From Promicromonospora soli (GTDB lineage Bacteria > Actinomycetota > Actinomycetes > Actinomycetales > Cellulomonadaceae), in contig NZ_BNAS01000005.1 in the NCBI RefSeq assembly GCF_014653785.1, positions 187,090 through 241,354 of the forward strand: a stretch of 54,265 nt of DNA. The letters are read 5' to 3'. A program made the position numbers and the translations under genes. Positions 11,418 to 46,017 of this stretch are shown piece by piece (within the stretch, counting starts at the first letter, position 1; each line of letters begins with the position of its first letter). The notes under the pieces are model-generated. The model saw nothing but the letters and a program-made list of their open reading frames with translations. It did no database searches and had not been told where the DNA came from.

Positions 11418-11425
11418 GTCTGATG

Positions 11426-11495: not shown

Positions 11496-11522
11496 CCAAC
11501 CGCCGGCGTCGGTCTCAGACGC

Positions 11523-32411: not shown

Positions 32412-33065
32412 GTGACGTCCTTCGAGCACCTCCCCATGGTCCGCAACGACCACGACGCCATGGCGCAGGCCTACGCCGCGTTCATCGGGGACGCGTTCAC
32501 AGGCAGCCCCCTGAATCATGTACTGGTCCAGGCCTTCGCCGACCTGGTCCAGCAGGCCGGCGGCGGGACCGTGGCCGACGTCGGTTGCGGGCCTGGGCAC
32601 GTGACCGCTTACCTGCGAGACCGGGGCGTCGACGCCTTCGGCATAGACCTCTCGCCCCGGCTGGTGGCGGCGGCCCGCGAAGCCAACCCGGGCATCCGGT
32701 TCGACGTCGGCGACATGGGCGCGCTCGACGTCGCGACAGGCAGCCTCGCCGGGGTGCTGGCGAACTACTCGATCATCCACACGCCGCCGGACGTGCTGCC
32801 CGCGATGCTCGGCGGGCTAAGCCGCGTCCTGGCTCCTGGCGGCCATCTACTGGTGTCGTTCCAGGCGCTGGCCGACGCTGAGGGAACGGCTGAGGCCTTC
32901 GACCACAAGGTCTCCCCCGCCTGGCGGTACTCGGCTGACCATGTCATCAGTCTGCTCGGGCAGACCGGTGTCGACGAGGTCGCCCGCCTTACGATCGCGC
33001 CGCGCGAGGACTCGGTGCGTGGCTTCCTACAGGCGCACGTCCTGACGCGCAAGGCGCCCGCCTGA
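32412..33065 (+). CDS. Class I SAM-dependent methyltransferase
   Basis: 217 residues. SAM-binding motif I is VADVGCGPGHVTAYL (about 54-68), motif II GIDLSPRLVAAAREA, and motif post-I LAGVLANYSIIHTPP. GTG 32412 start. The substrate is not apparent. An integrase remnant begins a few tens of bases after its stop, so it may be old cargo of a lost element. Confidence 0.82.
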   Translation: MTSFEHLPMVRNDHDAMAQAYAAFIGDAFTGSPLNHVLVQAFADLVQQAGGGTVADVGCGPGHVTAYLRDRGVDAFGIDLSPRLVAAAREANPGIRFDVGDMGALDVATGSLAGVLANYSIIHTPPDVLPAMLGGLSRVLAPGGHLLVSFQALADAEGTAEAFDHKVSPAWRYSADHVISLLGQTGVDEVARLTIAPREDSVRGFLQAHVLTRKAPA

Positions 33066-33099
33066 GGCTCACTGGTCAACGACCAGCACAGCACGCCGG

Positions 33100-33257
33100 G
33101 CCACGGTGCAGGCATGGTGTGGCCACGAGTCCGCCGCGACGACGAATCGGTACCTGCACTTCCTCGGCATCGGAGCCGATGTGGCGCCGGTCTGGAATGC
33201 CTCAACGACGGAACCGAGCACCCCGGGAGCACCCGAGACGCGGAGGACGCCTCCTGA
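33100..33257 (+). pseudogene. Integrase 3' remnant (third element)
   Basis: Translates to TVQAWCGHESAATTNRYLHFLGIGAD and ends in DAEDAS-stop, closely matching the last 55 codons of the intact integrase at 43566-44684 (catalytic H and Y included). Everything upstream is missing. It sits directly left of the leftmost att site, which implies that another element was once integrated there. Confidence 0.85.
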
Positions 33258-33269
33258 GTAACGAAGAAA

Positions 33270-33307
33270 CCCCGCTTGACCGGAGCGTTTGCCCTGGTCA
33301 AGCGGGG
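33270..33307 (+). terminator. Integrase terminator, copy A
   Basis: 12-bp perfect arms CCCCGCTTGACC (33270-33281) and GGTCAAGCGGGG (33296-33307). The same hairpin follows each integrase copy (37452-37492 and 44694-44737), so it belongs to the element's right end. Confidence 0.8.
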
Positions 33308-33316
33308 CTCCTATCG

Positions 33317-33359
33317 GTGGAGCTAGGGGGATTCGAACCCCCGACCTTCTCATTGCGAA
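33317..33359 (-). repeat. att site A: 43-bp 3' half of tRNA-Ala(CGC)
   Basis: Identical over 43 bp to the 3' half of the intact tRNA-Ala gene (44744-44786), from the anticodon loop to the acceptor end, and to site B (37501-37543). Beyond the core the sequence changes to the element-left-end sequence shared with site B. It marks the left boundary of element 2. Confidence 0.92.
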
Positions 33360-33485
33360 GACGGCCCAGGGTCTCCCGTGGCGAATCTTCCGCGTCATTC
33401 CGCGTGCATGCGGTGCGTCCAGCCCGGCCCCGTGCGGCGGCGGGGGCCGCCGGGGGCCGACAAGCTCGCCAGTAACGCCGCCGGA

Positions 33486-34544
33486 CTAGATGCCCGACCC
33501 GCCGCCGGACGTGTTGGTCCACCGGGCGTGGTATTCGTTCAGCGAGTACCTCTTCTGCTGACCGCTGGTGGAGGTGATCTCGAGGCCGAACTGCATCGTG
33601 TCGAAGTCGGTGTTGACCAGGAGGCCTTCCGACGCGGCCCATTCCCAGACCGCCAGGGCATCCACGGTGCCGCTATTGCGTTGTGAGGCAGGGATGAGCT
33701 GCAAGACGTTCCAGCCGGGGTTCGCCTGCCAGACCTCCGCATAGCGGATGCCGCCGATCGTCACGTTGGACCTGACCTTCGTCCCCCAGCCGCCTGCCTT
33801 TGGGTACCAGCTCGTGAAGACCATGACCTCGTCCTGGTTGCCGGTGGACCAGATGTCGGTCGTCCAGTTCCACCAGTCTCCGCTGCTGGTGGGGGCCGAC
33901 GAAGTGTTGTACGTGAACGTCGCCGACTTCATCTCGGCCAGGGGGGTGTGCGGCCTGACCGAGGTGTTCGGGTACGACTTGATGCCGCCGCCGGTCTGGG
34001 TCGAGTCGACGTACCACGAGTTCACGCTGTTGACGTGCAGGCACTGCGAGTCGTTGCCCTGGTTGCCCCACACGTTGTTGTAGATCGTCCAGCTGCCTTT
34101 GGTGTACTCCCCGAACGAGTTGCACGAGGAGTAGACCGCGGCCTGCGCCGGAGGCGCGTCCGGCGTTCCTGTGCTGGGCGACGGGGCCCCACTGACACCG
34201 CGGCCGTCTTCGCCGTCGCTTGAGCCTCGGCTGCTGCTGCCCGCCTCGGCCTCGGCGGCTGCCTCCGCCTCGGCGGCCTCAGCCGCGGCGGTGTCCGAGG
34301 GGCTGGGGCTCGGGCTCGGGCTGGGGCTCGGGCTGGCCGTCGCGGACGCGCTGGCGCTGGCGCTCGCCTCCGGCGACGAGCTGATCAGGGGGCCGTCAAA
34401 CCTGGGATCGACCGACGCGTCGCTGCCGGCGATGTTGCCGGCGATGGTCGGCGCGAGAGCGGCGGCGCCACCGAGGACGACCGCGAGGCCGACGACGACC
34501 GGCACGAGCCACCGGGGACGCAGGCGGCTCAGGAATGATGCCAT
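33486..34544 (-). CDS. Exported GH12-like endoglucanase with Ser/Pro/Ala linker
   Basis: 352 residues. A TM/signal anchor at about 12-35, a low-complexity linker (about 55-133: SPSPSP, then Ala/Glu and Ser/Gly runs), then a beta-jelly-roll domain (about 138-350) with GSWTIYNNVWGNQGNDSQCLHV, a GH12 hallmark. Candidate catalytic residues are Glu239 in DEVMVFT and Glu322 in GLEIT. GH12 enzymes cut beta-1,4-glucan or xyloglucan. It lies immediately inside att A, in the position where element 1 carries another exported protein. Confidence 0.75.
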   Translation of the reverse strand: MASFLSRLRPRWLVPVVVGLAVVLGGAAALAPTIAGNIAGSDASVDPRFDGPLISSSPEASASASASATASPSPSPSPSPSPSDTAAAEAAEAEAAAEAEAGSSSRGSSDGEDGRGVSGAPSPSTGTPDAPPAQAAVYSSCNSFGEYTKGSWTIYNNVWGNQGNDSQCLHVNSVNSWYVDSTQTGGGIKSYPNTSVRPHTPLAEMKSATFTYNTSSAPTSSGDWWNWTTDIWSTGNQDEVMVFTSWYPKAGGWGTKVRSNVTIGGIRYAEVWQANPGWNVLQLIPASQRNSGTVDALAVWEWAASEGLLVNTDFDTMQFGLEITSTSGQQKRYSLNEYHARWTNTSGGGSGI

Positions 34545-34839
34545 GGGGTCTTTTTCCCTCTCGTGAGGCGAAGAGGGGGCCGGAAGGACGCGCCGCCCTC
34601 GGCTTTAGGCCAGACCTTGCACGGTTGCTGCGCAGGTCGTCAAGACTTCAAAAGCCCGGCGGCTGCGTCGCTATGTCCTCGACCTTGCGCAGTATGGAGT
34701 CGTACACGCTCGACCGGGCCCTGCCAGGTATAGACGAACGGCCCGCCCAGGAAACCCTGGGTGCGGCCTGCCGCCCCCTGCTCTGGTTCCGCACCTCGCA
34801 TTGCGTGCGCGAACCGCTGGCGCGCACGTCGTCGGACCG
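34545..34839. other. No gene recognised between the GH12 promoter and the regulator remnant
   Basis: About 300 bp containing the upstream region of the GH12-like gene (34545-34620) and sequence without a coding pattern I can support. Antisense translation past the regulator remnant gives no recognisable family. Confidence 0.5.
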
Positions 34840-34957
34840 CTGTAGAGCCGCGTCCAGCATCCGCTGAACATCAGGCCGTTGTCGTGAACCCGGGTTCTGG
34901 TGCCATCCCGCAACGGTTCGCGGTGCGAGGCCGAGGTGTGTGTTCGGCGAACTCGTC
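34840..34957 (-). pseudogene. Remnant of the element HTH regulator gene
   Basis: Translates on the minus strand to LGLAPRTVAGWHQNP and QRPDVQRMLDAALQRS, nearly identical to the HTH domain of the HTH-Nudix gene in element 1 (nucleotides 40034-40147). Only about 118 bp remain; the 5' end is cut where integrase sequence begins. Confidence 0.85.
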
Positions 34958-34965
34958 GCCGGCTC

Positions 34966-35185
34966 ACGATCTACGGCACACCGCTGCGTGCCTCTGGCTC
35001 GCCCATCGCGTCGACCTGGCCACAGTGCAGGCATGGTGCGACCACAAGTCCGCCGCGACGACGGACCGATACCTGCATTTCCTCGGAACCGTGCCGATGT
35101 CGCGGGCCTGGAGCGCCTGAACGACGGTCGGGGGAACCTCGGGGGAACCCACGACGCGGAGGACGCCTCCCAGGCAACGAAGCCG
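34966..35185 (+). pseudogene. Integrase C-terminal remnant fused to the regulator remnant
   Basis: Encodes HDLRHTAACLWLAHRVDLATVQAWCDHKSAATTDRYLHFLGT (catalytic H-x-x-R, K/H and Y positions recognisable), then a frameshift, then GLERLND and DAEDAS. It matches 44464-44684 of the intact integrase. Directly upstream, within 10 bp, lies the regulator remnant, so the intervening replication genes were deleted in one step. No tRNA repeat follows it. Confidence 0.85.
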
Positions 35186-35212
35186 CGCCGCAGTCACCCC
35201 TGTCGGCCTGCA

Positions 35213-35520
35213 TTATCCGGACACGCTCCTAGGAGACACCCGCCCGAGCAGCGTGATCGCACGTTCCCGCATCTCGACCTTGCGGACTTTGCCTGTGACG
35301 GTCATGGGGAACTGATCGACCAGCTGGACATACCGCGGAATCTTGTAGTGGGCCAGATGGCCCTGGCAGTACCGCTTGACGTCCTGAGCGGTCAGCGGCG
35401 CGGCCCCGGAGCGCATGATGATCAGGCCATCAGTTCCTCGCCGCACTTGGCGTCGGGGACGCCGATGACCTGGACGTCGACGACGTCGGGGTGGGAATGG
35501 AGTTCCCTTCTCGTGATGCG
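35213..35520 (-). pseudogene. Acyl-CoA/AMP-ligase C-terminal domain fragment
   Basis: HPDVVDVQVIGVPDAKCGEELMA in one frame continues, after an apparent single-base loss near 35421, as IIMRSGAAPLTAQDVKRYCQGHLAHYKIPRYVQLVDQFPMTVTGKVRK, the C-terminal domain of AMP-forming acyl-CoA synthetases with its catalytic GK end. The N-terminal 400 residues are absent. It is a scar inside element 2. Confidence 0.85.
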
Positions 35521-35524
35521 CGCG

Positions 35525-35995
35525 CTACGGCTTGAGGTCGAGGTGTCGGCGTAGCGCCGTGGTGAACTCGTCGACCCGTGCCAGCTGTTCCGGGGAGAGC
35601 GCCTCGACGAAGAGCTCGTGCACGTCACGCAGGTGCGGCACCGAGCCGGTCCGGAACGATTCCGCACCGAGGTCGGTCAGCCGCACGTCGATGCCGTGGA
35701 CGTCGTCCGGGCACGGAGCCCGGTGTACGAGCCTGCGCTTCTCCATCCGTCCCAGGTGGTGGGACAGGCGACTGCGCTGCCAGCCGATGAGTTCGGCCAG
35801 CTCGGAGGAACGCAACGTCCTCCGGTCCGCCTCGCTCAGTGCGAGCAGCACCCGATAGTCGGCGGAGGACAAAGACGAATCGCTCTGAAGGCGTCCGTCC
35901 AGGATGGCCCGCAGTGTTTCGGCGGTCTCGATGTAGTTGCGCCAGATGCGCAGCTCCTCGCGCGTGGGCATCTCGCGGCGCTTGCCGTGAGCCAT
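35525..35995 (-). CDS. MarR family transcriptional regulator
   Basis: 156 residues with a MarR winged helix: LSSADYRVLLALSEADRRTLRSSELAELIGWQRSRLSHHLGRMEKRRLVHRAP. ATG 35995 follows GGGAGGT. It is divergent from the secreted SMP-30-like gene, with two near-perfect TTGACATGTCAA-type palindromes between them, so it almost certainly controls both genes. Confidence 0.88.
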   Translation of the reverse strand: MAHGKRREMPTREELRIWRNYIETAETLRAILDGRLQSDSSLSSADYRVLLALSEADRRTLRSSELAELIGWQRSRLSHHLGRMEKRRLVHRAPCPDDVHGIDVRLTDLGAESFRTGSVPHLRDVHELFVEALSPEQLARVDEFTTALRRHLDLKP

Positions 35996-36009
35996 GGCAC
36001 CTCCCGGGA

Positions 36010-36050
36010 TTGACATGTCAACTCCTCATGGTACAGGGTTGACACGTCAA
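36010..36050. promoter_or_regulatory. Pair of MarR-type operators
   Basis: TTGACATGTCAA (36010-36021, perfect palindrome) and TTGACACGTCAA (36039-36050, one position off) lie 29 bp apart centre to centre, between MarR and its divergent neighbour. The first box also supplies a TTGACA -35-like hexamer for the plus strand. Confidence 0.75.
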
Positions 36051-36112
36051 TCCCAATCAGGGTGAGACCTACCTCCGACTCGCTGTCGGATTCTGTGAGA
36101 AAGAAGAATGAA

Positions 36113-37090
36113 ATGAAGCTCTCCACGTCCATCGTCGGCGGTGTCCTCGCCGGCACCTTGGCGCTCGGCCTCGCCGCCGTCACCACCGCGTCCGCCACCG
36201 AGACGAACACCCCCGCCACGACTGAGGTCGCGGTCTCGGCATCCGACCGGGTCTTCCCCTCGACACTGTCCCTGCCCGACGGCTCGGTCCCGGAGGGAAT
36301 CGCGATCAGCGGCATCCACGCGTACGTCACCTCCTTCGCCGACGGCACCGTCTACAAGCTCAACCTGGCCACCGGCAGGTACAAGGTGCTCAGCCCGGCC
36401 ACCGGTACCGGCGCGGTCGGCATCATGCTCCATGACGGACGCCTGTTCGTCGCCGGCGGCACCGCGGGCACGGTGCGGGTGCTCGACCCGGGCAGCGGCG
36501 AAGAGCTGGCCAGCTACACCGTCGGCACCACCGGCCAGACCTTCATCAACGACTTCACCGTGCTCGACGGCGTCGTCTACGCCACCGACACGTTCAGCCC
36601 CGTCCTCCACAAGCTCCCGCTCGGGGAGAACGGTGAGCTGCCCGCGGCGGACCAGGTCGAGACCATCGCCCTGGACGGCATCACCTACAGCGAGGGCTTC
36701 AACGTCAACGGCATCACCACCACCCCCGACGGTGAGGCTCTCCTGCTCGTCCAGACGAACACCGGCCTGCTCTACCGAGTCGAGGAGAGCACCGGCGCTG
36801 CTGACCAGGTCGACGTCGGCGAGGCCGACCTGACCTGGGGCGACGGGATGCTGCTCGAGGGCAACACGCTCTACGTCGTGCGGAACTTCCCCAACACCGT
36901 CGCGGTGCTCGAGCTGGACGACACCGGCACCACCGCCGCCCTGACCGACGAGCTGACCGACCCGCGCTTCGACACCCCCACGACCATCGCCCGGTTCAAG
37001 GACAGCTTCTACCTGCCCAACGCCCGGTTCACGGCCGAGGACCCCTCGAGCGCCAACTTCTTCGTCACCGCCATCCCCGACGCGTCCTGA
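36113..37090 (+). CDS. Secreted SMP-30/gluconolactonase-like beta-propeller protein
   Basis: 325 residues with a Sec signal peptide (about 1-29, cleavage likely after SATA/SASA-type Ala) and repeated beta-propeller blades: GIAISGIHAYVTSFADGTVYKLNLATG, GIMLHDGRLFVAGGTAGTVRVLDPGSGE, NDFTVLDGVVYATDTFSPVLHKLP and NGITTTPDGEALLLVQTNTGLLYRVE. Similar proteins are lactonases or binding propellers; catalytic metal ligands cannot be fixed here. MarR-controlled cargo of element 2. A strong nested hairpin follows. Confidence 0.75.
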   Translation: MKLSTSIVGGVLAGTLALGLAAVTTASATETNTPATTEVAVSASDRVFPSTLSLPDGSVPEGIAISGIHAYVTSFADGTVYKLNLATGRYKVLSPATGTGAVGIMLHDGRLFVAGGTAGTVRVLDPGSGEELASYTVGTTGQTFINDFTVLDGVVYATDTFSPVLHKLPLGENGELPAADQVETIALDGITYSEGFNVNGITTTPDGEALLLVQTNTGLLYRVEESTGAADQVDVGEADLTWGDGMLLEGNTLYVVRNFPNTVAVLELDDTGTTAALTDELTDPRFDTPTTIARFKDSFYLPNARFTAEDPSSANFFVTAIPDAS

Positions 37091-37113
37091 TCCGCCGCTA
37101 TCGCAGCAGGGAC

Positions 37114-37171
37114 GCTGGGCGGGGCGAGAACCCGGGTCCGCACGGACCCTCAGATTCCCGCCCCGCCCAGC
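37114..37171 (+). terminator. Nested hairpin terminator after the SMP-30-like gene
   Basis: 13-bp perfect outer arms (GCTGGGCGGGGCG at 37114-37126 and its complement at 37159-37171) enclose a second stem GGGTCCG-CA-CGGACCC. It begins 23 bp after the stop codon. Confidence 0.75.
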
Positions 37172-37274
37172 AGAGTGCGCCAGCACGGATCCTGAGCAAG
37201 GCGTCACTCGCGTCGCGGCGTCGTTCCCATCTTGTGGGCGGAGATCTGACTCGCTCCGCACACCTTGCGCCGGC

Positions 37275-37450
37275 CCCGGGAGTACCCGAGGCGCGGAGGA
37301 CGCTTCCTAGGCACTTCCTCGGCACCCGGGCCACCGGTCGCCGAATGCGGGAGCGGCTGGGGGTACCTTGATCCACAGCGTTCGACCTCCGACACGAAAC
37401 ACCTGCTGCCGCTCGCTCACAGTGACGACGAACTGGTACCTGCAACGAAG
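37275..37450 (+). pseudogene. Scrambled integrase 3' remnants at the right end of element 2
   Basis: Two short matches to the integrase end occur here: 37277-37311 resembles the GAGGACGCCTCC tail (compare 33225-33257), and 37418-37450 resembles the TTNRYLH region but joins directly to the post-integrase CAACGAAGAAACCCC. Rearranged and non-coding. Confidence 0.7.
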
Positions 37451-37451
37451 A

Positions 37452-37492
37452 AACCCCGCCTGACCGGAGCGTTTGCCCTGGTCAGACGAGGT
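37452..37492 (+). terminator. Integrase terminator, copy B
   Basis: AACCCCGCCTGACC pairs with GGTCAGACGAGGTT with two mismatches; equivalent to the hairpins at 33270 and 44694. Confidence 0.7.
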
Positions 37493-37500
37493 TTCTACCG

Positions 37501-37543
37501 GTGGAGCTAGGGGGATTCGAACCCCCGACCTTCTCATTGCGAA
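37501..37543 (-). repeat. att site B: 43-bp 3' half of tRNA-Ala(CGC)
   Basis: Identical to site A and to the 3' half of the intact tRNA. It is the left boundary of element 1 and right boundary of element 2. The next roughly 100 bp match the sequence right of site A (about 33360-33450), the conserved left end of this element family. No gene is seen from 37544 to 37849. Confidence 0.92.
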
Positions 37544-37849
37544 GACGGCCCAGGGCCTCACGTGGCGAATCTCCCGCGTCATTACGCGTGCATGTGGTGC
37601 GTCCAACCCTTCCGCATGCGGTGGCGGGGGCCATCGGGAGGCCGCGCTTGAGGTTCGAAAGGGCATGCCAGTGCAGGCTGCCGCTGGGACCCGTCAGCTC
37701 TACCGAATTCGCGGGATGGGTTTGCCACCGCCACCGCGTTTACGGATAAAAGAGCAATTGAGGAATCAGCCGAGCAAACGAATCGACACCCCACAGAATA
37801 GGACCTAGCAAAGCGGCTTCACCCAAAGGATGAAGCCGCTTCGACGGCG

Positions 37850-38095
37850 TTATCTGATGAACACAGGAAGAAGGCTGTATACACCAGGAATGATGGCGGG
37901 AAAAATCATGAGGAGCGACCATGCTACGAGCACCGAGGCCCCAGCGAGGACCCACGGAAACCGCCTACCGAACAGCGCAGTCAGAACGGCCACCAAAGCG
38001 GTGATCAATGGAGCGTAAAACGCGGCAATGAAAGCGAATGCCAGTCCGGCCGCCAGCGCCGGAGTGATTTTTACAGACTTTTCCTCGTTGCTCAT
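37850..38095 (-). CDS. Small membrane protein, unknown
   Basis: 81 residues, short charged start (MSNEEKSVKI) then two or three hydrophobic helices, with GRRFPW between them. ATG 38095 has GGAG four bases away; ATG 38104 is an alternative after GAGGGG. Lower GC at third positions than the flanking chromosome. Cargo of element 1; function unknown. Confidence 0.6.
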   Translation of the reverse strand: MSNEEKSVKITPALAAGLAFAFIAAFYAPLITALVAVLTALFGRRFPWVLAGASVLVAWSLLMIFPAIIPGVYSLLPVFIR

Positions 38096-38197
38096 TCTCT
38101 CCATAACTCCCCTCAAAGCAAGCGATCACTGGCGGGCCACAAGCATTAACCGCGCCGCCAGTGATCTCAGTCTTGGCGATTCTAACGTTAGTGCGCT

Positions 38198-38857
38198 TTA
38201 ACCAGCCGCATCACCGTTCCACGAGAAGTACGCCGACCCGTTGCCGTGCATGTAGATGTCGATGCGCGGGTAGAAGTGCACAGGCACCCCCGCGGGTGTC
38301 CAAGTCGCATGCCACTGCAACTTGCTGTAGTAGCCAGAGTTAGCGATGGAGTTCCAGTTGTAGTAGCTCTTGTTGTGGCTGTAGACCGAGACGTCGGTAT
38401 AGAGCGAGGCGTCCAATACGCTCTGGCTCGCACTGGGACTCGTGACCTTCCCGGTAACTTTGCTCCAGCACCAGGAGACCGAATGCTTGAGCCTGTAGTA
38501 GCCGTCGTACTGTGCGACGTCGTAGGCAGACCTGCACCCGGTGGAACCTGTCGGCGCTGGCATCGTGTAGTTGCCGGCCGCAAGGATCGTAAATTCGCCG
38601 GGAGCTGGCTCGTCGCTCGAACTCGGCTCCATAAGGGCTTCCACAGAAACCGGCATGGTGACCCGGTGAGTATCCACCAGTTTGCCGCCGACAGTGTAGT
38701 CCTTGATAACCATCTCGATCGACGGCTCGGCAGCTTCGTCGGCAACGCCTGCGGCAAGTCCGCCGCTAGCGGGTGTGGCGGACACCGGACCCGCACCCCA
38801 CAGCAATCCAGCGATCAGCACTGGCGTCACCAGCACTGCCCTCTTTGAGATTTTCAT
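38198..38857 (-). CDS. Secreted protein rich in Tyr/Ser/Trp, unknown function
   Basis: 219 residues. A clear signal peptide (about 1-27, ending VSATPA), an acidic propeptide-like stretch, then a domain (about 95-219) with GCRSAYDVAQYDGYYRLKHSVSWCWSKVTG and many aromatic residues (SYYNWNSIANSGYYSKLQWHATW). Two cysteines may pair. I recognise no family. RBS-like GGAGCG precedes the ATG. Codon use is less GC-biased than in the chromosome, as expected for acquired cargo. It occupies the same end of element 1 as the GH12 gene does in element 2. Confidence 0.65.
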   Translation of the reverse strand: MKISKRAVLVTPVLIAGLLWGAGPVSATPASGGLAAGVADEAAEPSIEMVIKDYTVGGKLVDTHRVTMPVSVEALMEPSSSDEPAPGEFTILAAGNYTMPAPTGSTGCRSAYDVAQYDGYYRLKHSVSWCWSKVTGKVTSPSASQSVLDASLYTDVSVYSHNKSYYNWNSIANSGYYSKLQWHATWTPAGVPVHFYPRIDIYMHGNGSAYFSWNGDAAG

Positions 38858-39035
38858 AACGCTCCGTCGGTTCTGTGACTATTGTCCGAACTGCGTGGGC
38901 AGTCTGCCAGACCGTCATGGCACGTGGCTCCGGATTCGTTACGAACGTGGGTGAACTTTGGAGGGCCAGGACAGGATCGGCTCCTCGGGATCGATCTTTC
39001 AGGCCACCTCTCCCACCTACTCGACACAGCGAACG

Positions 39036-39232
39036 GGGTAGCGCATGTAGCGGATCGAGCCGCTACCAGTAGCGCGGGCGCTACCGCACCCGCTACCCCC
39101 GGGAGCCGCTAGATTCCAACGATCCTCACCAGGGGTAGCGGAAGTAGCGGCCTCCAGCCACAGGTCCTCGATATCGCCGAAACCCGGGTTCTGGCGCTCC
39201 GCGGGTAGACGTTACCCGCGCTACCGCTACCT
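39036..39232. repeat. Cluster of about ten GTAGCG/CGCTAC units, non-coding
   Basis: In under 200 bp the hexamer GTAGCG and its complement occur about five times each, often as GGTAGCGG, arranged as both direct and inverted repeats. The 38858-39234 gap has no supportable gene. Iteron-like; a replication origin, or binding site for an element protein, is possible. A GGGGTAGCGG unit recurs in the inverted repeat at 43205. Confidence 0.7.
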
Positions 39233-39234
39233 CG

Positions 39235-39645
39235 TCAGCCGACTTTCGTCGTGAGGTAGTCCTGCACTGCTGGCGCGAAGCCGTAGGGCACGTAGTCGGA
39301 GAACTTGTCCGGCGTTGCCCAGACGATGTCTGCGAGCTCTTCGGTGTCAGCGACGTACGCCTCGCCGCTGACGACGTCGCACGCGACGTAGCCCATGAGG
39401 CGACCGGTGTTCGGGTGCACGCGCTCCCCCAGCACCTTCACGGCCTCGACGGTGAGCCCGGCCTCTTCGGCCGTCTCGCGGACGGCCGCCTGTTCAAATG
39501 TCTCGCCCTGCTCGACGGCGCCAGCCGGGAACTGCCACGAAAGCGAACCCTCGGAAACGCGACGCTGGACCAGGAGCAACTTCCCGTCCTGGACGATGAT
39601 CGCCGCCGCGATGGCGGGCTTCGCTTCGGTCACTGCCTCAGACAT
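39235..39645 (-). CDS. Nudix hydrolase with canonical motif
   Basis: 136 residues. The Nudix box spans about residues 42-64 (GAVEQGET then RETAEEAGL) and matches G-x5-E-x7-REU-x-EE-x-GU. It should hydrolyse a nucleoside diphosphate derivative. pSAM2-type elements encode a Nudix protein (Pif) involved in transfer immunity; a similar role is inference. Its ATG overlaps the end of the upstream HTH-Nudix gene by 8 bp, so they are coupled. Confidence 0.88.
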   Translation of the reverse strand: MSEAVTEAKPAIAAAIIVQDGKLLLVQRRVSEGSLSWQFPAGAVEQGETFEQAAVRETAEEAGLTVEAVKVLGERVHPNTGRLMGYVACDVVSGEAYVADTEELADIVWATPDKFSDYVPYGFAPAVQDYLTTKVG

Positions 39646-40217
39646 GCGTGCCTCCCAGCACTTCGAGGATCGGCGGGTAGATATTGCTCTCCGGAACGAA
39701 CTTGCCGAGGTCCGCCACGGCTACCCATGCGACGCTGGCGTTCTCCACGACGTCGCGATTCTCCGCCTCACCGGCGAGGTAGTCACAGTGGAAATATTCG
39801 CAGTACACGCCCGTGTGCGGGTGCACGCGGGCTCCGATCTGCTCGCGGACGGAGCAGTGAACGGCGGTCTCGACGTAGGTCTCACGTACCGCGGCATCGG
39901 CCGGCGACGCTCCGGGTTTCACGATGCCCGCGGGGAACTGCCAGCGGAGCGCGCCGTCGTCGCGACGCTGGACCAGGAGCACGGAGTCGTCACGCTGGAC
40001 CACAGCCAGGGCGACGGTGAGCCGCTGCGGCTCGCTGTAGAGCCCCGTCCAGCATCCTCTGAACGTCTGGCCGCTGTCGGGTCGCCGGGTTCTGGTGCCA
40101 GCCCGCGACGGTTCGCGGTGCGAGGCCGAGGTGTTCGGCGAACTCTTCGTTGGACATGCGTAGCGCGGATTGGAGCCGGGCGGCTCGCTCGCCGTTCCAC
40201 GCATCAATCACAGTCAA
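39638..40217 (-). pseudogene. HTH-Nudix fusion regulator, frameshifted between the domains
   Basis: From TTG 40217 (GGGGG eight bases upstream) one frame gives TVIDAWNGERAARLQSALRM and LGLAPRTVAGWHQNP, an HTH domain common in AICE regulators, ending LDGALQR near 40030. The next frame then gives LTVALAVVQRDDSVLLVQRR and a Nudix domain to 39638. One base must be skipped near 40020-40030 to join them. The Nudix box is degenerate (Ala at the first Glu, VE for EE, Ala for Gly). It could be a mutation, or two overlapping products with an unseen internal start. Confidence 0.65.
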
Positions 40218-40323
40218 TGCAATCACCCCCTGAATCGGTTGCACCGGCACTGCATCGGGACTGCATCGGGGCGTCATCGATCGCCCACCCGAACAGCGGT
40301 TCGCTGGTCACATGCGAAACGAC

Positions 40324-40650
40324 CTACGCGGACCGAGCATCTTCGAGAGCCTGCACCCGCGCTTCGAGCGCGGCGACGCGCTCCGCGAGGCTCTCGTCTC
40401 CAGCCGACGCCGTGCGCTGTTCGGCAGTGGCGACGAAGACGCCCTTGCCCTGCTGTCCGATGACGTAGCCCTCCGCCTTGAGCGCACTGAGCGCGTCCCG
40501 GACGACCGTGCTGGAGACGCCGTGCTCCGCCTGGAGCGCGGCCGACGAGGGCAGTTGCGCACCCTCGGAGAGTTCACCGCTGACGATGCGGCGTCGGAGT
40601 TCTCCGGCCAGACGACGACCGGCGGGTTCGCTCGTGAGGTTCGTGTTCAT
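40324..40650 (-). CDS. GntR family repressor, KorSA-like, short form
   Basis: 108 residues. The GntR winged helix is in LAGELRRRIVSGELSEGAQLPSSAALQAEHGVSSTVVRDALSALKAEGYV (about 14-63), followed by a short coiled-coil tail (about 84-105) and no effector domain. KorSA of pSAM2 is a GntR-type repressor of element activation. Here it is divergent from the replication operon across a region with four GCACTA-type repeats. Confidence 0.85.
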   Translation of the reverse strand: MNTNLTSEPAGRRLAGELRRRIVSGELSEGAQLPSSAALQAEHGVSSTVVRDALSALKAEGYVIGQQGKGVFVATAEQRTASAGDESLAERVAALEARVQALEDARSA

Positions 40651-40669
40651 CAGGGCACCGCCTCCTTAT

Positions 40670-40755
40670 GCACTAAGTACAGCACACCCCACCTGCGACT
40701 TCACGGAAGTTCACTCGTAACACTTGACGCACTATGTGCACTAGGTGCACTGTGG
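40670..40755. promoter_or_regulatory. Direct repeats of GCACTAxGT, candidate GntR operators
   Basis: GCACTAAGT at 40670-40678, then three tandem 9-mers at 40729-40755: GCACTATGT, GCACTAGGT, GCACTGTGG. The tandem set overlaps a TTGACG hexamer (40724-40729) facing the replication operon, so binding would block that promoter. Confidence 0.65.
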
Positions 40756-40811
40756 AGACACGGGCCGAGGCAAAGGGTCGCGGCCGGAACGACGAACCTC
40801 AGGAGGTCATC

Positions 40812-40880
40812 ATGTCTGTGACGACGACGGAGAACACCACGGTCGGAGCGCAGGAGCCCGGACGCTGGTCGACGTCATGA
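40812..40880 (+). CDS. 22-residue leader peptide of the replication operon
   Basis: ATG 40812 follows AGGAGG at ideal spacing and reads MSVTTTENTTVGAQEPGRWS then TS and stop. Its TGA overlaps the next ATG (ATGA at 40877-40880). It is the only well-placed ribosome binding site at the operon start, so it probably drives translation of the next gene by coupling. Confidence 0.55.
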   Translation: MSVTTTENTTVGAQEPGRWSTS

Positions 40881-41206
40881 TCGACGCCGCGGCCCTGGTG
40901 GGCCGCATCGGTCGTGACCGCGTGCTCGAGGTGCACACGCACGTGCACGACGTGATCGTCACCCTCAACAGCGGCGTGGACGCCTGGGACCTGGCCAACG
41001 AGCTCGGGCTGCCGGGCGTGGACCTGGTCGAAGACGCCAGCATGAACGAGCTGCAGCGCACGGCCTGGGGACACGACGTCGTGCCCGGCCTGTCGTACGT
41101 CGCGCTCATGGGTGACGCACTGCCCGGCGACGCCGAGCTCTACGCCGAACTGACCGGCAACCACGACGCGGGCGCCGGACTTCGCGTCGTCGGGCCGAAC
41201 GCATGA
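40877..41206 (+). CDS. Small element protein, unknown
   Basis: 109 residues, MIDAAALVGRIGRDRVLEVH onward, acidic and alpha/beta in pattern, with a HTHVHD histidine cluster near residues 20-25. No family recognised. Coupled on both sides through ATGA overlaps (40877 and 41203). Its conservation of position in the operon before the replication ATPase suggests an element maintenance role, which is inference. Confidence 0.65.
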   Translation: MIDAAALVGRIGRDRVLEVHTHVHDVIVTLNSGVDAWDLANELGLPGVDLVEDASMNELQRTAWGHDVVPGLSYVALMGDALPGDAELYAELTGNHDAGAGLRVVGPNA

Positions 41207-41496
41207 CGCGGCCGGGCTACTACTCCGGTCGCTCGCGCCGCCCGAGCCCCGTCCGTCCGCCAGCTCGCGCGGACCGGTCCGGCTGGCGGGGACAGACGGA
41301 CAGACGGACCGGACCAGCGGACCGGGCCGGACAGACGGACACACGAACCGGACAGACCCCCGGACCGGACACAGACGTCATCCGGCCGGACAGTACGAAG
41401 ACTGCCCGGCCGGACACGCGGACAGACGGCTCCTGCCAGAGCCCACTGTCCGGACAGACCGCACACGAATCCAACCGCCAGGAAGGGTCACGATGA
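41203..41496 (+). CDS. Repeat-rich small protein overlapping the iteron-like array
   Basis: 97 residues, strongly basic and rich in Arg, Thr, Asp, Gly and Pro, built from units like GQTDRRTG, GQTDTRTG, GQTPGPDTD. It begins and ends in ATGA overlaps, which favours translation. The repeats are a direct result of CCGGACAGAC-type DNA repeats, so the DNA rather than the protein may be what is selected. Confidence 0.45.
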   Translation: MTRPGYYSGRSRRPSPVRPPARADRSGWRGQTDRRTGPADRAGQTDTRTGQTPGPDTDVIRPDSTKTARPDTRTDGSCQSPLSGQTAHESNRQEGSR

Positions 41497-41620
41497 ACAG
41501 CCCAAACCCAGTGAACACCACGGGTGACAGCCACGTCACGCCGGACACGTCCGGCCGGACAGAGGGCGGCGCGGCACCTGCCGTGTCCACCCCGGACACG
41601 TCCGGACCACGGGAACGGAA
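41289..41620. repeat. Iteron-like array of CCGGACA/GGACAGAC units
   Basis: About ten copies of CCGGACA, many extended as CGGACAGACGG, spread from 41289 through the first 40 codons of the replication ATPase gene. Both the small protein gene and the ATPase gene read through it. Repeats directly at a replication gene are typical of origins; function not shown. Confidence 0.65.
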
Positions 41621-43355
41621 GTCCGCCGCTGCGGTCCTGGTCGAGCTGGCCATGGACCGGTACGGCTTCGGCTGCACCCCGGACGGGGAGCCGTTCGCCG
41701 TCCCGACGTCGGGCGGCAAGATCGTCCGGATCCTCCGTGGCGGACGCTCGTCACTGCGGTCCGAACTCGCGCAGATCTACCAGAAGCAGACCGGCCTCAT
41801 CGCCGGACAGCAGGCTCTCTCGGACGCGCTGCTCGTGATCGAGGGAACCGCCCGGCAGACCGAGCCGGTAGCCGTGCACCTGCGAGTCGCCGAGCACGCC
41901 GGCGCAACCTGGATCGACCTAGGCGACGCTGCCGAACGGGTCGTGCGCGTCGACTCACGAGGCTGGACCATGGCTGACGACGTGCCAGTCCTGTTCCGCC
42001 GCACCGCGCTCACCGCCGCGCTCCCCGCTCCCGAGCCGGGCGGCACGCTGGAGGATCTGTGGGCGCTGCTCAACGTCACCGCGTCGGACCGGCCGCTCGT
42101 GCTCGCGTGGCTCGTCGCCGCTCTGGGCTGGGAGAACATCCCGCACCCGATGCTCGCGCTGCTCGGTGAGCAAGGCACCGGGAAGTCGTCGGCAACGAAG
42201 AGCTTGGTGCAGCTCGTGGACCCGTCTCCGGTGCCGCTGCGCAAGCCGCCACGGGACGCCACAGGTTGGGTGACGGCTGCGGCCGGTTCGTGGGTCGTCG
42301 GCCTGGACAACATCTCGGACATCCCCGGCTGGCTGTCCGACTCCCTTTGCCGGGCGGTGACCGGTGACGGCGACGTGCGTCGCGAGCTGTACAGCGATGA
42401 CGGGCTCGCCGTGTTCTCGTTCCGCCGCGCCATCGTCATGAACGGCATCGACGTCGGTGCCATGGCACCCGACCTCGCGGACCGATCCATCGTCGTCAAC
42501 CTCGATCGGATCACCGAGACGCAGCGCCGCCCAGAGTCGCAGCTCGTCGCCGCATGGGAAGGAGCATGGCCGCGTGTGTTCGGTGCGCTGCTCTCGCAGG
42601 TCCAGGCGTGCAAGGCCCGGATTCCTTCCGTCCGGCTCGACTCCATGCCACGCATGGCCGACTTCGCCATGGTGCTTGCAGCGCTGGACCAGGTGAACGG
42701 GACGGCTGGTCTCTCGTCGTACAGGGACCAGGCGAACACGCTCGCGCGCGACGCCGTGACGTCGGACCCGTTCCTCGCCGCCCTGGCCCAGCACGTCACG
42801 CGCGCATGGGAGGGGACTGCCGCCGCGCTGCTCGATCTGGTCCAGCCCGAGGGCATCCCGCCGCGCACCTGGCCCAAGAGCGCCCGGGGCGTGACCGGTG
42901 TGCTCAAGCGCACCGCGCCCGCGCTCCGCTCCGCCGGCTGGGGCGTGGATGACCTCGGCACCGCGAACAAGAGCGGCGTCAACCTCTGGAGACTCACGCC
43001 ACCCAGAGATGCCCCGGAATCATCCCCGCCTATCCCCGCTACCCCGTCTTCGCAGGTCACAGCCCTGCACATGGCGGGGAAAGGCGGGGTAGAGCGGGTT
43101 ATCGATCCCGGCAGGCGGGATAACGGCGGGGAACGATACCCCGCCCTCAGAGTCGTTAACCCGCCTTACCCCGCCACCTCCGACGCTCTGACCTGCGAAG
43201 ACGGGGTAGCGGGGATAGGCGGGGATCAATACGGGGCATCTCCGGTCGGCACCTGTCCCGACTGCGGAGAGTCCCTGTCCGGCCCTGGCTCCACCACCCG
43301 ATGCCGCCCCAACCACACCACCGACGACGCCGAGGAGAACACCCATGTCTCGTGA
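41493..43355 (+). CDS. Replication ATPase, probable SF3/D5-like helicase of the element
   Basis: 620 residues. An N-terminal tail carries two TPDTSG repeats. The ATPase core has Walker A GEQGTGKS at 225-232, a Walker B-like WVVGLDNISD at 267-276, a sensor-like FSFRRAIVMNGID at 308-320 and a helicase-like DLADRSIVVNLDRI segment. Residues about 510-578 are low-complexity and encoded by a nested inverted repeat. The end has a C-x2-C zinc-finger-like CPDCGESL...RC motif. It probably unwinds the excised circle for replication. No primase motif is evident. Confidence 0.75.
   Translation: MNSPNPVNTTGDSHVTPDTSGRTEGGAAPAVSTPDTSGPRERKSAAAVLVELAMDRYGFGCTPDGEPFAVPTSGGKIVRILRGGRSSLRSELAQIYQKQTGLIAGQQALSDALLVIEGTARQTEPVAVHLRVAEHAGATWIDLGDAAERVVRVDSRGWTMADDVPVLFRRTALTAALPAPEPGGTLEDLWALLNVTASDRPLVLAWLVAALGWENIPHPMLALLGEQGTGKSSATKSLVQLVDPSPVPLRKPPRDATGWVTAAAGSWVVGLDNISDIPGWLSDSLCRAVTGDGDVRRELYSDDGLAVFSFRRAIVMNGIDVGAMAPDLADRSIVVNLDRITETQRRPESQLVAAWEGAWPRVFGALLSQVQACKARIPSVRLDSMPRMADFAMVLAALDQVNGTAGLSSYRDQANTLARDAVTSDPFLAALAQHVTRAWEGTAAALLDLVQPEGIPPRTWPKSARGVTGVLKRTAPALRSAGWGVDDLGTANKSGVNLWRLTPPRDAPESSPPIPATPSSQVTALHMAGKGGVERVIDPGRRDNGGERYPALRVVNPPYPATSDALTCEDGVAGIGGDQYGASPVGTCPDCGESLSGPGSTTRCRPNHTTDDAEENTHVS
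43022..43226. repeat. Nested inverted repeat: 38-bp perfect arms plus inner 19-bp arms
   Basis: Arms 43022-43059 and 43189-43226 are exact reverse complements. Inside, 43083-43101 and 43153-43171 pair with two mismatches (GGCGGGGTA...GCGGGTTA). GCGGGGTA units recur throughout. It lies within the 3' end of the replication ATPase gene, just upstream of the excisionase and integrase genes. Confidence 0.85.
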
Positions 43356-43569
43356 GACCAACACCGCCGTCGCCAAGCTGACGACGCTCATCCCGGCTGA
43401 CGAGTTCCTGACGACCGAGGAAGTAGCCGCATGGCTCAAGGTCGCACCATCCACGGTCTGCCGGTGGCGGCTCGCTGGCAAGGGTCCGCGCGTCGTGTGG
43501 CTCTCCCCGTCGCTCCCCCGCTACCGCCGGAACGACATCGTGCTGTGGCTCGAAAGGAGCGCCGCGTGA
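43345..43569 (+). CDS. Excisionase-like helix-turn-helix protein
   Basis: 74 residues with one MerR/HTH_17-type domain: EFLTTEEVAAWLKVAPSTVCRWRLAGKGPRVVWLSPSLPRYRRNDIVLWLE. Such proteins next to tyrosine integrases direct excision. The start overlaps the ATPase gene by 11 bp and the end overlaps integrase (GTGA at 43566-43569). Confidence 0.85.
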   Translation: MSRETNTAVAKLTTLIPADEFLTTEEVAAWLKVAPSTVCRWRLAGKGPRVVWLSPSLPRYRRNDIVLWLERSAA

Positions 43570-44684
43570 GCATCGTCAAGGAGAACGGCCGGTTCCGCGC
43601 CCGCCTCAAGTCCGGCCGTCAGAACATCGCGTCCAAGACGTTCGACACCCGCCGCGAGGCCAAGGCGTGGCTCGACCGGGAACGGGCCGCCCTCGCGGGC
43701 GGCCTGGACCCCAGAGCAGGCAAGGAGCCTGTGAAGTCGGCTCTGGACCGTTGGCTGACGATCCGCAAGACGACCGTCGCGAAGAAGACCTACGGCGCCG
43801 ACGTGGACCTCAGGCGGCTCATCCCGACGAGCATGCAGAACGTGCACCTGTCGGCAGTCTCGGAACGGGAGGTGGCGCGCTCGTTCGAGAAGCTGCTCGC
43901 TGGCGGCCTGGCCGAGTCGTCTGTAGTGCGGTACCGCGCCAGCCTGTCCGTCTTCTTCTCCTGGTGCGTCCGAGAGAAACTGCTCGCACGGAACCCCGTC
44001 GCCGGGGTCAAGGTCCCCAAGGGCTCGGACGAGGTGGACGAGATGCACCCGTTCACGGAGAACGAGCTCGAAGCCGCGCACCTGGTCTGGAAGATGAAGG
44101 ACGAGCGGCTGGCGGACATCCTGCTCGTGCTGGGTTGGACCGGCCTCCGCTGGGGCGAGGCCCGCGCGATGCAGGTCGCGTCTCTCATGGAGATTCCGAC
44201 CGCTGCGCTCATGGTCCGCCGGAGCCAGCCCGAGGGCTCCCCCGTGAAGGCCACCAAGGGCCGGAGCATGCGCCGCGTGCCGCTGGGGAATCGCGTGCTG
44301 CCGATCGTCCGTGAACTGGCGCGTGGCAAGGCACCCCATGACCTGCTGTTCACGACGTCAGGTGGAGCGCAGCTCTGGCGCTCGTCGTCGCTGCGACTGC
44401 TCGACTGGACGAGACTCGATGACCACGGGAACAACGTCGGGACCGGCCGTGGCCGGCGCCTCCACGACCTACGGCACACAGCCGCGTGCCTCTGGCTGGC
44501 ACGGCGCATCGACCCCGGAACGGTGCAGGCGTGGTGCGGCCACGAGTCCATCGCGACCACGAACCGGTACCTGCACTACCTCGGTACCGGAGCGGACAAG
44601 GCGGGCCTGGATCGGCTCAACGAAGGGGTCTCCGACGACGCGGGGGCCGCCGGGGGGCCGCGCACGGAGGAAGACGCCTCCTAA
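43566..44684 (+). CDS. Tyrosine site-specific integrase of element 1
   Basis: 372 residues. An AP2-like N-terminal DNA-binding segment (about 8-50), a SAM-like core-binding domain (about 55-140) and a catalytic domain with R195 (TGLRWGEA), K230, H300-x-x-R303 (HDLRH), H326 (GHES) and Y335 (NRYLH). Start GTG 43566 overlaps the excisionase stop. It lies 60 bp from the intact tRNA-Ala, and its integration core is the 43-bp tRNA 3' half. All catalytic residues are present. Confidence 0.95.
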   Translation: MSIVKENGRFRARLKSGRQNIASKTFDTRREAKAWLDRERAALAGGLDPRAGKEPVKSALDRWLTIRKTTVAKKTYGADVDLRRLIPTSMQNVHLSAVSEREVARSFEKLLAGGLAESSVVRYRASLSVFFSWCVREKLLARNPVAGVKVPKGSDEVDEMHPFTENELEAAHLVWKMKDERLADILLVLGWTGLRWGEARAMQVASLMEIPTAALMVRRSQPEGSPVKATKGRSMRRVPLGNRVLPIVRELARGKAPHDLLFTTSGGAQLWRSSSLRLLDWTRLDDHGNNVGTGRGRRLHDLRHTAACLWLARRIDPGTVQAWCGHESIATTNRYLHYLGTGADKAGLDRLNEGVSDDAGAAGGPRTEEDAS

Positions 44685-44693
44685 GCAACGAAG

Positions 44694-44737
44694 AAACCCC
44701 GCTCGACCGGAGCATCTGCCCTGGTCAAGCGGGGTTT
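44694..44737 (+). terminator. Integrase terminator, copy C
   Basis: AAACCCCGCTCGACC (44694-44708) pairs with GGTCAAGCGGGGTTT (44723-44737) with one mismatch, and ends in TTT. Between the integrase stop and the tRNA, transcribed toward the tRNA 3' end. Confidence 0.85.
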
Positions 44738-44744
44738 CCGTCTG

Positions 44745-44817
44745 TGGAGCTAGGGGGATTCGAACCCCCGACCTTCTCATTGCGAACGAGACGCGCTACC
44801 AACTGCGCCATAGCCCC
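44745..44817 (-). tRNA. tRNA-Ala(CGC)
   Basis: 73-nt cloverleaf on the minus strand: acceptor GGGGCTA/TAGCTCC with the G3-U70 pair that marks alanine tRNAs, D arm GCGC...GCGC, anticodon loop TTCGCAA (anticodon CGC), T arm CGGGGGTTCGAATCCCCC. CCA is not encoded (ACAG follows). Its 3' half from the anticodon loop is the integration core repeated at 33317 and 37501. Confidence 0.95.
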
Positions 44818-44919
44818 TCGGACTGCAGAAGACTAGCATCTCACCTCCCGTGATCCGCAACTTGATGCGGTGTCGCGCGGGTCACGAACGCATGACCCGC
44901 GCGACCCCCACCAGCAGCG

Positions 44920-46017
44920 TCACCCGGCAGCCCGGCGTCGCGCCAGGATCTCCTCGAGCGGCGTGCCCAGCGTCTCGGACTTCATGCGCGGCGGCTCGCC
45001 CCGCATCAGCTCGTCCTCGGCGATCGCGTCGTCCCTGGCCGACGCCGCTGCATCCGCCGAGCCCGCACCCGAACCACCCTGACGCCCCGACCCGCCCGAA
45101 GACGCCGTCGGCCCCTTGGCGGGCGACTGCGCGGGCGGAAGTGCCACAGGCTGACGCTGCGGTGCCGCGGGCTTGGTCACGTAGGTGGGCAGCGGTACGG
45201 GAACCGGGTCCCAGGCACGTCCGGTCGGCGGCTCGTCCCGCTTCGCGGGCTTCTCGCCCTCGTCGTCGGAAACTGCCTCGGCCTCGACCTGCACCTCGAT
45301 CACCTTGGGCTTCGCCGGGCCGTCGAGGATCTCGTCGAGCACGTTCTTGCCCCCGACCCGCGGGATCGCCTGCGTCTCCGTGTCCGAGCCGCGGGCCGCC
45401 AGGCCCACGACCTGCGCGCGGTTCCGCGGAGCGTACGGGCCGCCGTTCGCGAGGGCACGCTGCTGCGTGGCACGCTGCCGGGCGTCCCTGACCGCGGCCG
45501 TCCACCTGGCATCAGCCCGCCGCGCGGCGCGGGCCGCGCGCCGACCCAGGAACAGCACGAACAGCAGCATGGCCGACGCCGTGACGGCCGGCCCCCAGTG
45601 GAGCCTGTCGAACCCGACAAGCGTCCAGGCAGCGACGCTGCACAGCAGCAGGAAGATCGACACGATGAACCGACGGCGCGCCCGAGCGGCCCGCCGCGCA
45701 CGCCGCTCGACCCGGCGGATGCGCTCCGCCGTCAGCGGGCGGCCCCGGACCATGATCTGGAGCGGGCGGCCCTGCTTCGGGATCGGGCGGGCGACGCGCG
45801 GCACACCCTGCGCGGTAACGCGTGGCTTGCCGTCGGTGACCATCGCCCCTCCTCTCCTACCGGAGCCGCTCATCGCGACGATGCGCAGCCCTCCCGAAAA
45901 CCGGTCCATCACTCGTGCGTCGGCAAGCTCCGCCCGATGGCGCACCAGACTTGGCATCCAGTAGCCCAGCCACAGGACGGACAGCGCTACGGCTGTGAGT
46001 CCCGCGGTCGATTCCAC
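44920..46017 (-). CDS. sepX: SepX/GlpR-type divisome membrane protein
   Basis: 365 residues. An N-terminal TM helix (about 5-22) followed by LGYWMPSLVRHR, a basic cytoplasmic region, two adjacent TM helices (about 117-135 and 141-157) and a long disordered Pro/Ala/Lys tail. This layout and its place next to a RimJ-like gene match the actinobacterial family called SepX in Streptomyces and GlpR in Corynebacterium, which binds the gephyrin-like Glp and FtsZ. GTG 46017 start. Gene symbol by family and context, not by close alignment. Confidence 0.75.
   Translation of the reverse strand: MESTAGLTAVALSVLWLGYWMPSLVRHRAELADARVMDRFSGGLRIVAMSGSGRRGGAMVTDGKPRVTAQGVPRVARPIPKQGRPLQIMVRGRPLTAERIRRVERRARRAARARRRFIVSIFLLLCSVAAWTLVGFDRLHWGPAVTASAMLLFVLFLGRRAARAARRADARWTAAVRDARQRATQQRALANGGPYAPRNRAQVVGLAARGSDTETQAIPRVGGKNVLDEILDGPAKPKVIEVQVEAEAVSDDEGEKPAKRDEPPTGRAWDPVPVPLPTYVTKPAAPQRQPVALPPAQSPAKGPTASSGGSGRQGGSGAGSADAAASARDDAIAEDELMRGEPPRMKSETLGTPLEEILARRRAAG

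Follow-up and report, generated by a model that had tools for sequence, protein, structure and literature searches.

Three copies of a tRNA end and two bounded units

The window analysed here, a stretch of 54,265 nt (G000:C5:187090-241354) from the 5.38-Mb draft genome of Promicromonospora soli (G000), carries to the left of a tRNA-Ala(CGC) gene a tandem array of units that most probably descend from actinomycete integrative and conjugative elements (AICEs). This gene was the sole tRNA detected in the window with ARAGORN and the only Rfam entry at gathering scores between 33.0 and 44.9 kb (Table 1). A 43-bp core, corresponding by position to nucleotides 32-74 of the tRNA, from the anticodon loop to the 3' end, is present three times without change, and a separate search confirmed its first 30 bases at all three sites; in a second species of the genus (G005) the core copy was measured directly as tRNA positions 32-74. 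The core spacings of 4,184 and 7,243 bp give the sizes of the two bounded units (hereafter the 4.2-kb and 7.2-kb units). Similarity extends beyond the core: the 58 nt preceding it, hairpin included, are alike at 47-50 of 58 positions between copies, identity between the two left copies reaches 57 nt (33315-33371), and these two are followed by a common element end. Because the 30-nt core start had no match in 100 dinucleotide shuffles, with up to three mismatches allowed, and 20 Markov sequences contained no exact direct repeat longer than 18 nt, a chance origin of the core copies is excluded. The hairpin between the integrase gene and the tRNA is probably the terminator of both, and the present 3' half of the tRNA gene was presumably supplied by the 7.2-kb element.

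Table 1 Features of the tRNA-Ala(CGC) array, in window coordinates (att, attachment site; HTH, helix-turn-helix; aa, amino acids; ORF, open reading frame)
Feature	Position	Strand	Remark
Integrase 3' remnant of an older third element	33046..33275	+	
Hairpin of copy 1	33266..33312		
att core copy 1, left end of array	33317..33359	-	Exact 43-bp repeat
4.2-kb unit, left end	33360..33459		88/100 identical to left end of G005 element
GH12-like glycoside hydrolase, cargo	33486..34544	-	Secreted-type by eye; phmmer to PDB 6sdu 2.1e-19 and 6k9d (GH12 endoglucanase) 2.7e-7; no Pfam match at 0.01
HTH-Nudix gene fragment	34833..34939	.	88% to 40028-40134
Integrase 3' fragment without hairpin or att	34914..35191	+	
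MarR-family regulator, cargo	35525..36016	-	Pfam MarR_2 8.9e-10
Beta-propeller-like protein, cargo	36062..37090	+	Secreted-type by eye; weak SGL/PQQ matches, below their cut-offs
Hairpin of copy 2	37444..37500		Closest to G001 tRNA-proximal hairpin (54/59)
att core copy 2, between units	37501..37543	-	Exact 43-bp repeat
7.2-kb unit, left end	37544..37643		84/100 identical to 33360-33459
88-aa cargo ORF	37850..38116	-	No Pfam match
219-aa cargo ORF	38198..38857	-	Secreted-type by eye; no Pfam match
Nudix hydrolase, Pif-like position	39235..39645	-	Pfam NUDIX 1.8e-22
HTH-Nudix gene	39638..40232	-	HTH and Nudix parts in different frames
GntR-family regulator	40324..40650	-	Pfam GntR 5.7e-18
109-aa ORF	40877..41206	+	72% identity to G005 ORF; dN/dS 0.36
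P-loop ATPase, 620 aa, putatively RepA/RepPP-like	41493..43355	+	
Palindrome of iteron-like units, ~250 nt	43003..43245		Inside ATPase gene
Xis-like protein, 74 aa	43345..43569	+	Pfam HTH_17 6.2e-7
Tyrosine integrase, 372 aa	43566..44684	+	Pfam Phage_integrase 2.3e-15 (longer reading frame)
Element-type hairpin between int (+) and tRNA (-)	44692..44738	.	
att core copy 3, tRNA-proximal	44744..44786	-	Exact 43-bp repeat
tRNA-Ala(CGC), target gene	44744..44817	-	ARAGORN, Rfam tRNA

Identical cores between arms that differ at 8-11 of 58 positions could also result from homologous recombination or gene conversion spreading the repeats, in place of repeated integrase insertions. We regard this as very improbable, given that each copy is joined to a different integrase tail or hairpin variant and that L066 and L142 are single-element sites built in the same way.

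The 4.2-kb unit has both att ends and no integrase or transfer genes apart from an integrase fragment. Within it, pieces of an HTH-Nudix gene and of an integrase gene are fused, and an integrase tail, recognised by eye, stands ahead of core copy 2. Because the internal integrase fragment lacks an att site, we call the unit a composite; it looks like the product of at least two decayed elements that kept usable ends, resembling a cis-mobilisable element (CIME). In the integrase debris left of 33317, positions 33103-33186 encode residues 319-346 of the 372-aa integrase at 86% identity. An earlier, sequence-only reading had described three unchanged copies of the tRNA-Ala 3' half, the same hairpin before each, the same element end after two of them and an integrase remnant of a third element on the left, all of which is borne out; it had also taken the 4.2-kb unit for a single crippled element, where the extra integrase fragment, absent from that reading, instead points to a decayed composite.

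Gene content of the 7.2-kb unit and its relatives

A tyrosine integrase gene adjoins the att site in the tRNA 3' end, and its R-K-H-R-H-Y residues, which we take to be the catalytic set, are invariant in all 20 aligned rows, the window row included. The HTH_17 protein encoded ahead of it is a predicted excisionase (Xis), and similar ORFs are found upstream of the integrase gene (int) in relatives. A phage origin was rejected, as all 73 phage records with an integrase match were less than 60% identical (25-29% for the eight matches listed).

Two modules of a complete AICE are missing. The FtsK/SpoIIIE-type translocase domain (PF01580) had eight matches in the G000 genome and none inside the window, Prim-Pol (PF09250) had none in the whole genome at E <= 0.001, and RepSA and DUF3631 had none among the element proteins scanned, so that there is no translocase (Tra) and, from a RepSA, RepAM or Prim-Pol module, just the ATPase partner of Prim-Pol is left. 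With att and int kept, no transfer (tra) gene and an incomplete replication (rep) module, the unit has the make-up of a defective or remnant (mobilisable) AICE. The sequence-only reading had cast it as a helper for its neighbour; one integrase does survive, but since the window holds no FtsK-type translocase and the genome no Prim-Pol, a self-moving helper is unlikely, and the unit could at most supply integrase and Xis; its own excision is plausible and its self-transfer unlikely. Possible helpers, judged by similarity, are two AICE-type FtsK genes elsewhere in G000, at C2:334818 (L105) and C13:2950 (L104). Locus L105 (C2:325500-345400) has FtsK-type, RepSA-like and integrase genes by similarity, and L104, on contig C13, has an FtsK-type translocase gene together with Rep and integrase genes by similarity. 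Judged by eye, L105 also holds a gene resembling a DNA methyltransferase. Contig C13 was considered as a circular element and rejected, its last 20 bases being found nowhere else in the contig.

An undeleted relative occupies the same tRNA-Ala(CGC) gene in genome G236. This 14.2-kb element reads, in order, displaced core, Nudix, HTH-Nudix, GntR, FtsK, Prim-Pol, DUF3631 (RepAM-type), xis, int and tRNA; its integrase is 77% identical to that of the window, its FtsK frame is open (the stop, at residue 737 of 738 read, is the natural end), and by eye its displaced core has a native-type tRNA hairpin and its tRNA copy an element-type one. Compared with this plan, the window unit seems to lack the block between GntR and the rep gene. 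FtsK and Prim-Pol genes also lie between GntR and the same ATPase in L096 and upstream of the ATPase in L094, L095 and L097. The xis-int-att part of the window unit matches elements at tRNA-Thr(CGT), several of them with RepSA-like and FtsK genes, and because this part and the Nudix-GntR/rep part match different elements, we regard the unit as a mosaic.

G005 carries at this tRNA an element of 6.76 kb from which the same block is missing; it aligns with window positions 40028-45069 in one piece at 85% and with 39030-40038 at 89%. Ratios of nonsynonymous to synonymous divergence (dN/dS) between the two elements are 0.09 for int, 0.23 for the ATPase, 0.22 for GntR and 0.10 and 0.12 for the Nudix parts, and the genes common to both are under purifying selection. 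Because the shortened GntR-to-ATPase stretch is itself common to both, the form under this selection was probably the tra-less one. Among the loci compared, the 109-aa ORF has relatives in the G005 element only. The hexamer GGACAG occurs 10 times in the window element, 8 times in that of G005, and 0, 1, 6 and 3 times in stretches of L094-L097; a cluster of GGACAGAC/CCGGACA repeats at 41290-41480 occupies the place of the absent transfer block. The GGACAG repeats there were considered as candidate transfer (clt) or origin repeats.

For the ATPase, no match was found in Pfam or, up to E = 1, in a sequence search against the PDB, and an AlphaFold2 model built from 6 sequences had a mean predicted local distance difference test score of 44.5 and was not used. 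Its relatives lie downstream of Prim-Pol genes in L094-L097 and L112, and directly after a 'bifunctional DNA primase/polymerase' in 3 Streptomyces plasmids (~43% identical over 77-78%); because of this neighbourhood, we infer a Prim-Pol partner of the RepPP/RepA kind. Nine copies occur in 7 of the 221 genomes of the family: five have an FtsK-type gene nearby, two are the tra-less pair, and those at L148 and L149 gave no match to the FtsK queries used.

Near its 3' end, the ATPase gene contains an in-frame palindrome. All eight close members (the window, G005, L094, L095, L096, L097, L112 and L148) have one of 177-264 nt, and none was found in G177 or in the three Streptomyces plasmid relatives. 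In 10 control ORFs the longest palindromic match was 59 nt, and in five genes, with 40 synonymous-codon shuffles each, the real palindrome score was never reached (179 bits versus at most 55 in the window; 58 versus at most 48 in L148, the narrowest margin). The unit sequences vary between members, as does the protein sequence, and the symmetry is kept: in an alignment of seven of the eight members (L148 left out), 22 of 64 pairs have changed on both sides with pairing retained, and 88% of palindrome cells pair, versus 38-49% when slid, a value reached by 0 of 500 shuffles, the structure tested being itself derived from the same alignment. The RNAalifold covariation term is slightly unfavourable (+1.13), and folding as DNA gave z = -14.7. 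We interpret the palindrome as a probable replication origin because, in plasmid pWTY27, a RepA encoded beside a primase/polymerase is described as binding a long inverted repeat of short repeats (PMC3583192). A rep-type gene with a primase partner and a long inverted repeat of short units are common to both systems; the pWTY27 repeat is described as non-coding, whereas that of the window lies inside the rep-like gene, and the two RepA proteins are likened by description.

tRNA targets of the integrase family and the tRNA-Ala(CGC) site across the genus

The integrase family (int-A) had 21 matches in 19 of the 221 genomes, nine at tRNA-Ala(CGC), nine at tRNA-Thr(CGT), two at tRNA-Pro(CGG) and one at no detected tRNA, and displaced copies of tRNA positions ~32-74 were found in 7 of 17 loci examined (L066, L100, L101, L102, L142, L144, L160). 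There is modest support for alternation of the family between tRNA-Ala(CGC) and tRNA-Thr(CGT). Parsimony on the tree needs five Ala/Thr changes, a count as small arose in 57 and 62 of 500 label shuffles, and the branches with strong support require just 1-2 changes. There is precedent for AICE integrases that are close relatives and sit at different tRNAs (PMC3218068). Elements at tRNA-Ala in G194 (L156) and tRNA-Thr in G027 (L098) are 91% identical over 7.2 kb, with integrases at 91.5%, and no displaced tRNA copy was found in either. The two differ mainly in ~32 bp of the tRNA 3' half next to a hairpin that both possess, and a target may have been switched recently. The motif CGACCTTCTCATTNCGANNGAGA occurs twice in G000, in the tRNA-Ala(CGC) and tRNA-Thr(CGT) genes (2, 2, 1, 1, 0 and 0 matches in the six genomes searched), and the tRNA-Thr site of G000 also holds integrase debris.

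Across 13 genomes of the genus (G000-G012, one per species), the tRNA-Ala(CGC) site is a hypervariable hotspot. A conserved chromosomal anchor ends at window position 13301, 31 kb from the tRNA in G000, and in the nine genomes with anchor and tRNA on one contig (G000, G001, G003, G005, G006, G008, G009, G010 and G011; split in the other four) the distance, from hand-subtracted coordinates, varies from 19 kb (G011) to ~166 kb (G003). Sorted by eye, the hairpin at the tRNA is element-type in 8 of 13 genomes (G000, G001, G004, G005, G006, G009, G011, G012) and native-type in 5 (G002, G003, G007, G008, G010), and an intact integrase of the window family adjoins the tRNA in 2. The left core copy of G005 has a native-type hairpin, and 168 bp there are 97.6% identical to the whole-tRNA junction of G010. 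The tRNA hairpin of G001 matches window copy 2 at 54 of 59 positions and the window tRNA copy at 43 of 59, a pattern that entry of the 7.2-kb element between copy 2 and the tRNA copy would produce. In G006, two cores lie 917 bp apart with element-type hairpins at both and an integrase tail on the left, which is the same accretion and decay.

These loci also bear on a rival reading, in which a piece of chromosome that carried by chance an integrase tail and the 3' end of the tRNA underwent segmental duplication; a 195-nt direct repeat at 33260 and 37444, with 90% similarity between its copies, suggests it. Its probability is negligible: the limits of the repeats fall at the anticodon loop and match those of displaced tRNA halves in other genomes, the contents of the units, remnants aside, are not duplicates, and the G005, G236 and G006 loci contradict it.

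In four genomes (G001, G002, G004 and G012; loci L016, L018, L015 and L020), the anticodon stem of tRNA-Ala(CGC) reads TCTTC/GAAG in place of TTCTC/GAGA, a paired change that makes the att core different. No full displaced core was found in the 3.9-20 kb left of the tRNA in these genomes, and G002 has a 31-bp core copy on another contig; the change is possibly a form of target-site resistance.

Probable accretion at tRNA-Ala(CGC) and its alternatives

We consider it very likely that the array arose by site-specific accretion of AICE-derived elements, relatives of pSAM2, at tRNA-Ala(CGC). Recombination at the anticodon loop would be the work of an integrase from a single family, and every incoming element would carry a tRNA 3' half and a terminator of its own and shift the previous 3' half leftwards, as the anatomy suggests. 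An older element would have decayed to the integrase stub left of 33317, and one or more later elements to the 4.2-kb composite, with both ends kept and no integrase. The 7.2-kb element would then have entered at the tRNA, as a mosaic of the xis-int-att part of tRNA-Thr/tRNA-Ala elements and the Nudix-GntR/RepA-like modules of Prim-Pol-type AICEs, from which the FtsK-to-Prim-Pol block is absent. Int and Xis would probably excise the 7.2-kb unit via 37501 x 44744 and, less often, the 4.2-kb unit or both units; the circle may replicate from the rep-gene palindrome if primase is supplied, and transfer would need the TraB/FtsK of another element. Tandem accretion of two bounded units at one tRNA, with one surviving integrase, is also what the sequence-only reading had proposed, and the exact cores and repeated arms uphold it. 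An unbroken syntenic block spanning 33-45 kb, which that reading had named as contrary evidence, was not seen in the 12 other genus genomes, in stretches of ~20 kb left of each tRNA (10 kb in G007, 3.9 kb in G012, more in G003 and G006); G005 alone shares most of 39.0-44.7 kb, and others share pieces such as Nudix genes.

Several observations weigh against this account or parts of it. Element-free junctions in G010 (relative to G005) and G001 support insertion, though indirectly and over short stretches: the G005/G010 match covers 125 bp outside the core and the G001 stretch just 59 nt. A 35-bp partial core with a nearly identical hairpin lies 12.3 kb further left in G010, so that its site is free of this element and perhaps not empty. 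No displaced copy was found in 10 of the 17 int-A loci examined, and the assembly lacks the additional core copy expected from a circular form. The HTH-Nudix gene is one open frame in G005 and out of frame in the window, a sign of decay in the window copy. Synonymous divergence (dS) between G000 and G005 is alike for the element (0.34-0.54) and for core genes (0.30-0.58, from eight neighbouring chromosomal frames, with frames of dN/dS <0.5 taken as true), and the element may have been inherited rather than recently moved. Vertical descent explains the G000/G005 pair as well as transfer does, and a recent horizontal transfer of the tra-less element between them is not claimed, element dS being equal to core dS. 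G003, which is closer to G000 by core dS, has element fragments only.

Much of this would suit a fossil array, built by accretion and no longer excising, in which the integrase is intact only through recent loss of use. Divergence equal to that of the host, the frame-broken gene, the lack of an assembled circular form and the absence of an intact integrase beside the tRNA in 6 of 8 genus genomes with element-type hairpins all favour it; the low int dN/dS, the presence of catalytic residues and Xis and the three exact cores oppose it, and we judge it somewhat unlikely. A further-reaching version of the accretion account would make the 7-kb unit, instead of a wreck, a selected mini-AICE satellite: having shed translocase and primase and retained integrase, Xis, entry-control genes and a palindromic origin within the rep gene, it would travel with TraB and primase borrowed from resident AICEs, its integrase family would hop between a pair of tRNA genes with a common anticodon arm, and arrays of this sort would serve it as a parking place; this we regard as unlikely.

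Accretion, decay and proposed cis-mobilisation of AICEs at tRNA genes have already been published (PMC9513070, PMC3218068, PMC5704250). At a Streptomyces tRNA-Arg hotspot (PMC9513070), AICEs and defective AICEs are described as accreted, with cis-mobilisation proposed; that array and ours have in common several units of AICE descent flanked by identical direct repeats at a single tRNA gene, a shared remnant lacking traB, and decay to cargo and a truncated integrase. Two or three functional elements are reported there in two strains, whereas in the window the sole int-bearing unit has no translocase or Prim-Pol. The AICEs surveyed in PMC3218068 likewise have int-att in tRNA 3' ends, xis, Nudix and tandem pairs, and a RepPP partner beside Prim-Pol; four Frankia units without tra or rep are termed remnants or mobilisable elements there, and the main search as described drops fragments with two or fewer of three modules, which would leave out the window unit. 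Like a CIME as described in PMC5704250, the 4.2-kb unit retains its two ends and lacks genes for integration and transfer; it differs in its composite make-up, with one additional integrase piece, and its cis-mobilisation would be putative. Islander is reported to list 125 tandems of at least two among 3,919 islands (PMC4383910). A full-text literature search for Promicromonospora with 'integrative and conjugative' found no paper, and the present array, itself of known type, extends AICE accretion and decay to this genus. The parts worth following are the tra-less unit and the covarying, origin-like palindrome within a replication gene: the undeleted relative at the same tRNA shows a way in which a derivative without transfer genes could form and then persist, largely intact, in two species, and satellite behaviour of AICEs becomes testable.

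Beside the array, a methyltransferase gene (window 32412-33065) has relatives in G004, G005, G006, G010, G011 and G012 at ~44-52 kb beyond the conserved anchor, and it may have been moved or copied to the array side. Elsewhere in the window, a palindromic ~73-nt repeat at 11425-11498 recurs in at least seven other places in the genome as a family resembling repetitive extragenic palindromic (REP) sequences, and further near-perfect hairpins lie at 5106-5154, 6825-6893 and 51064-51121.

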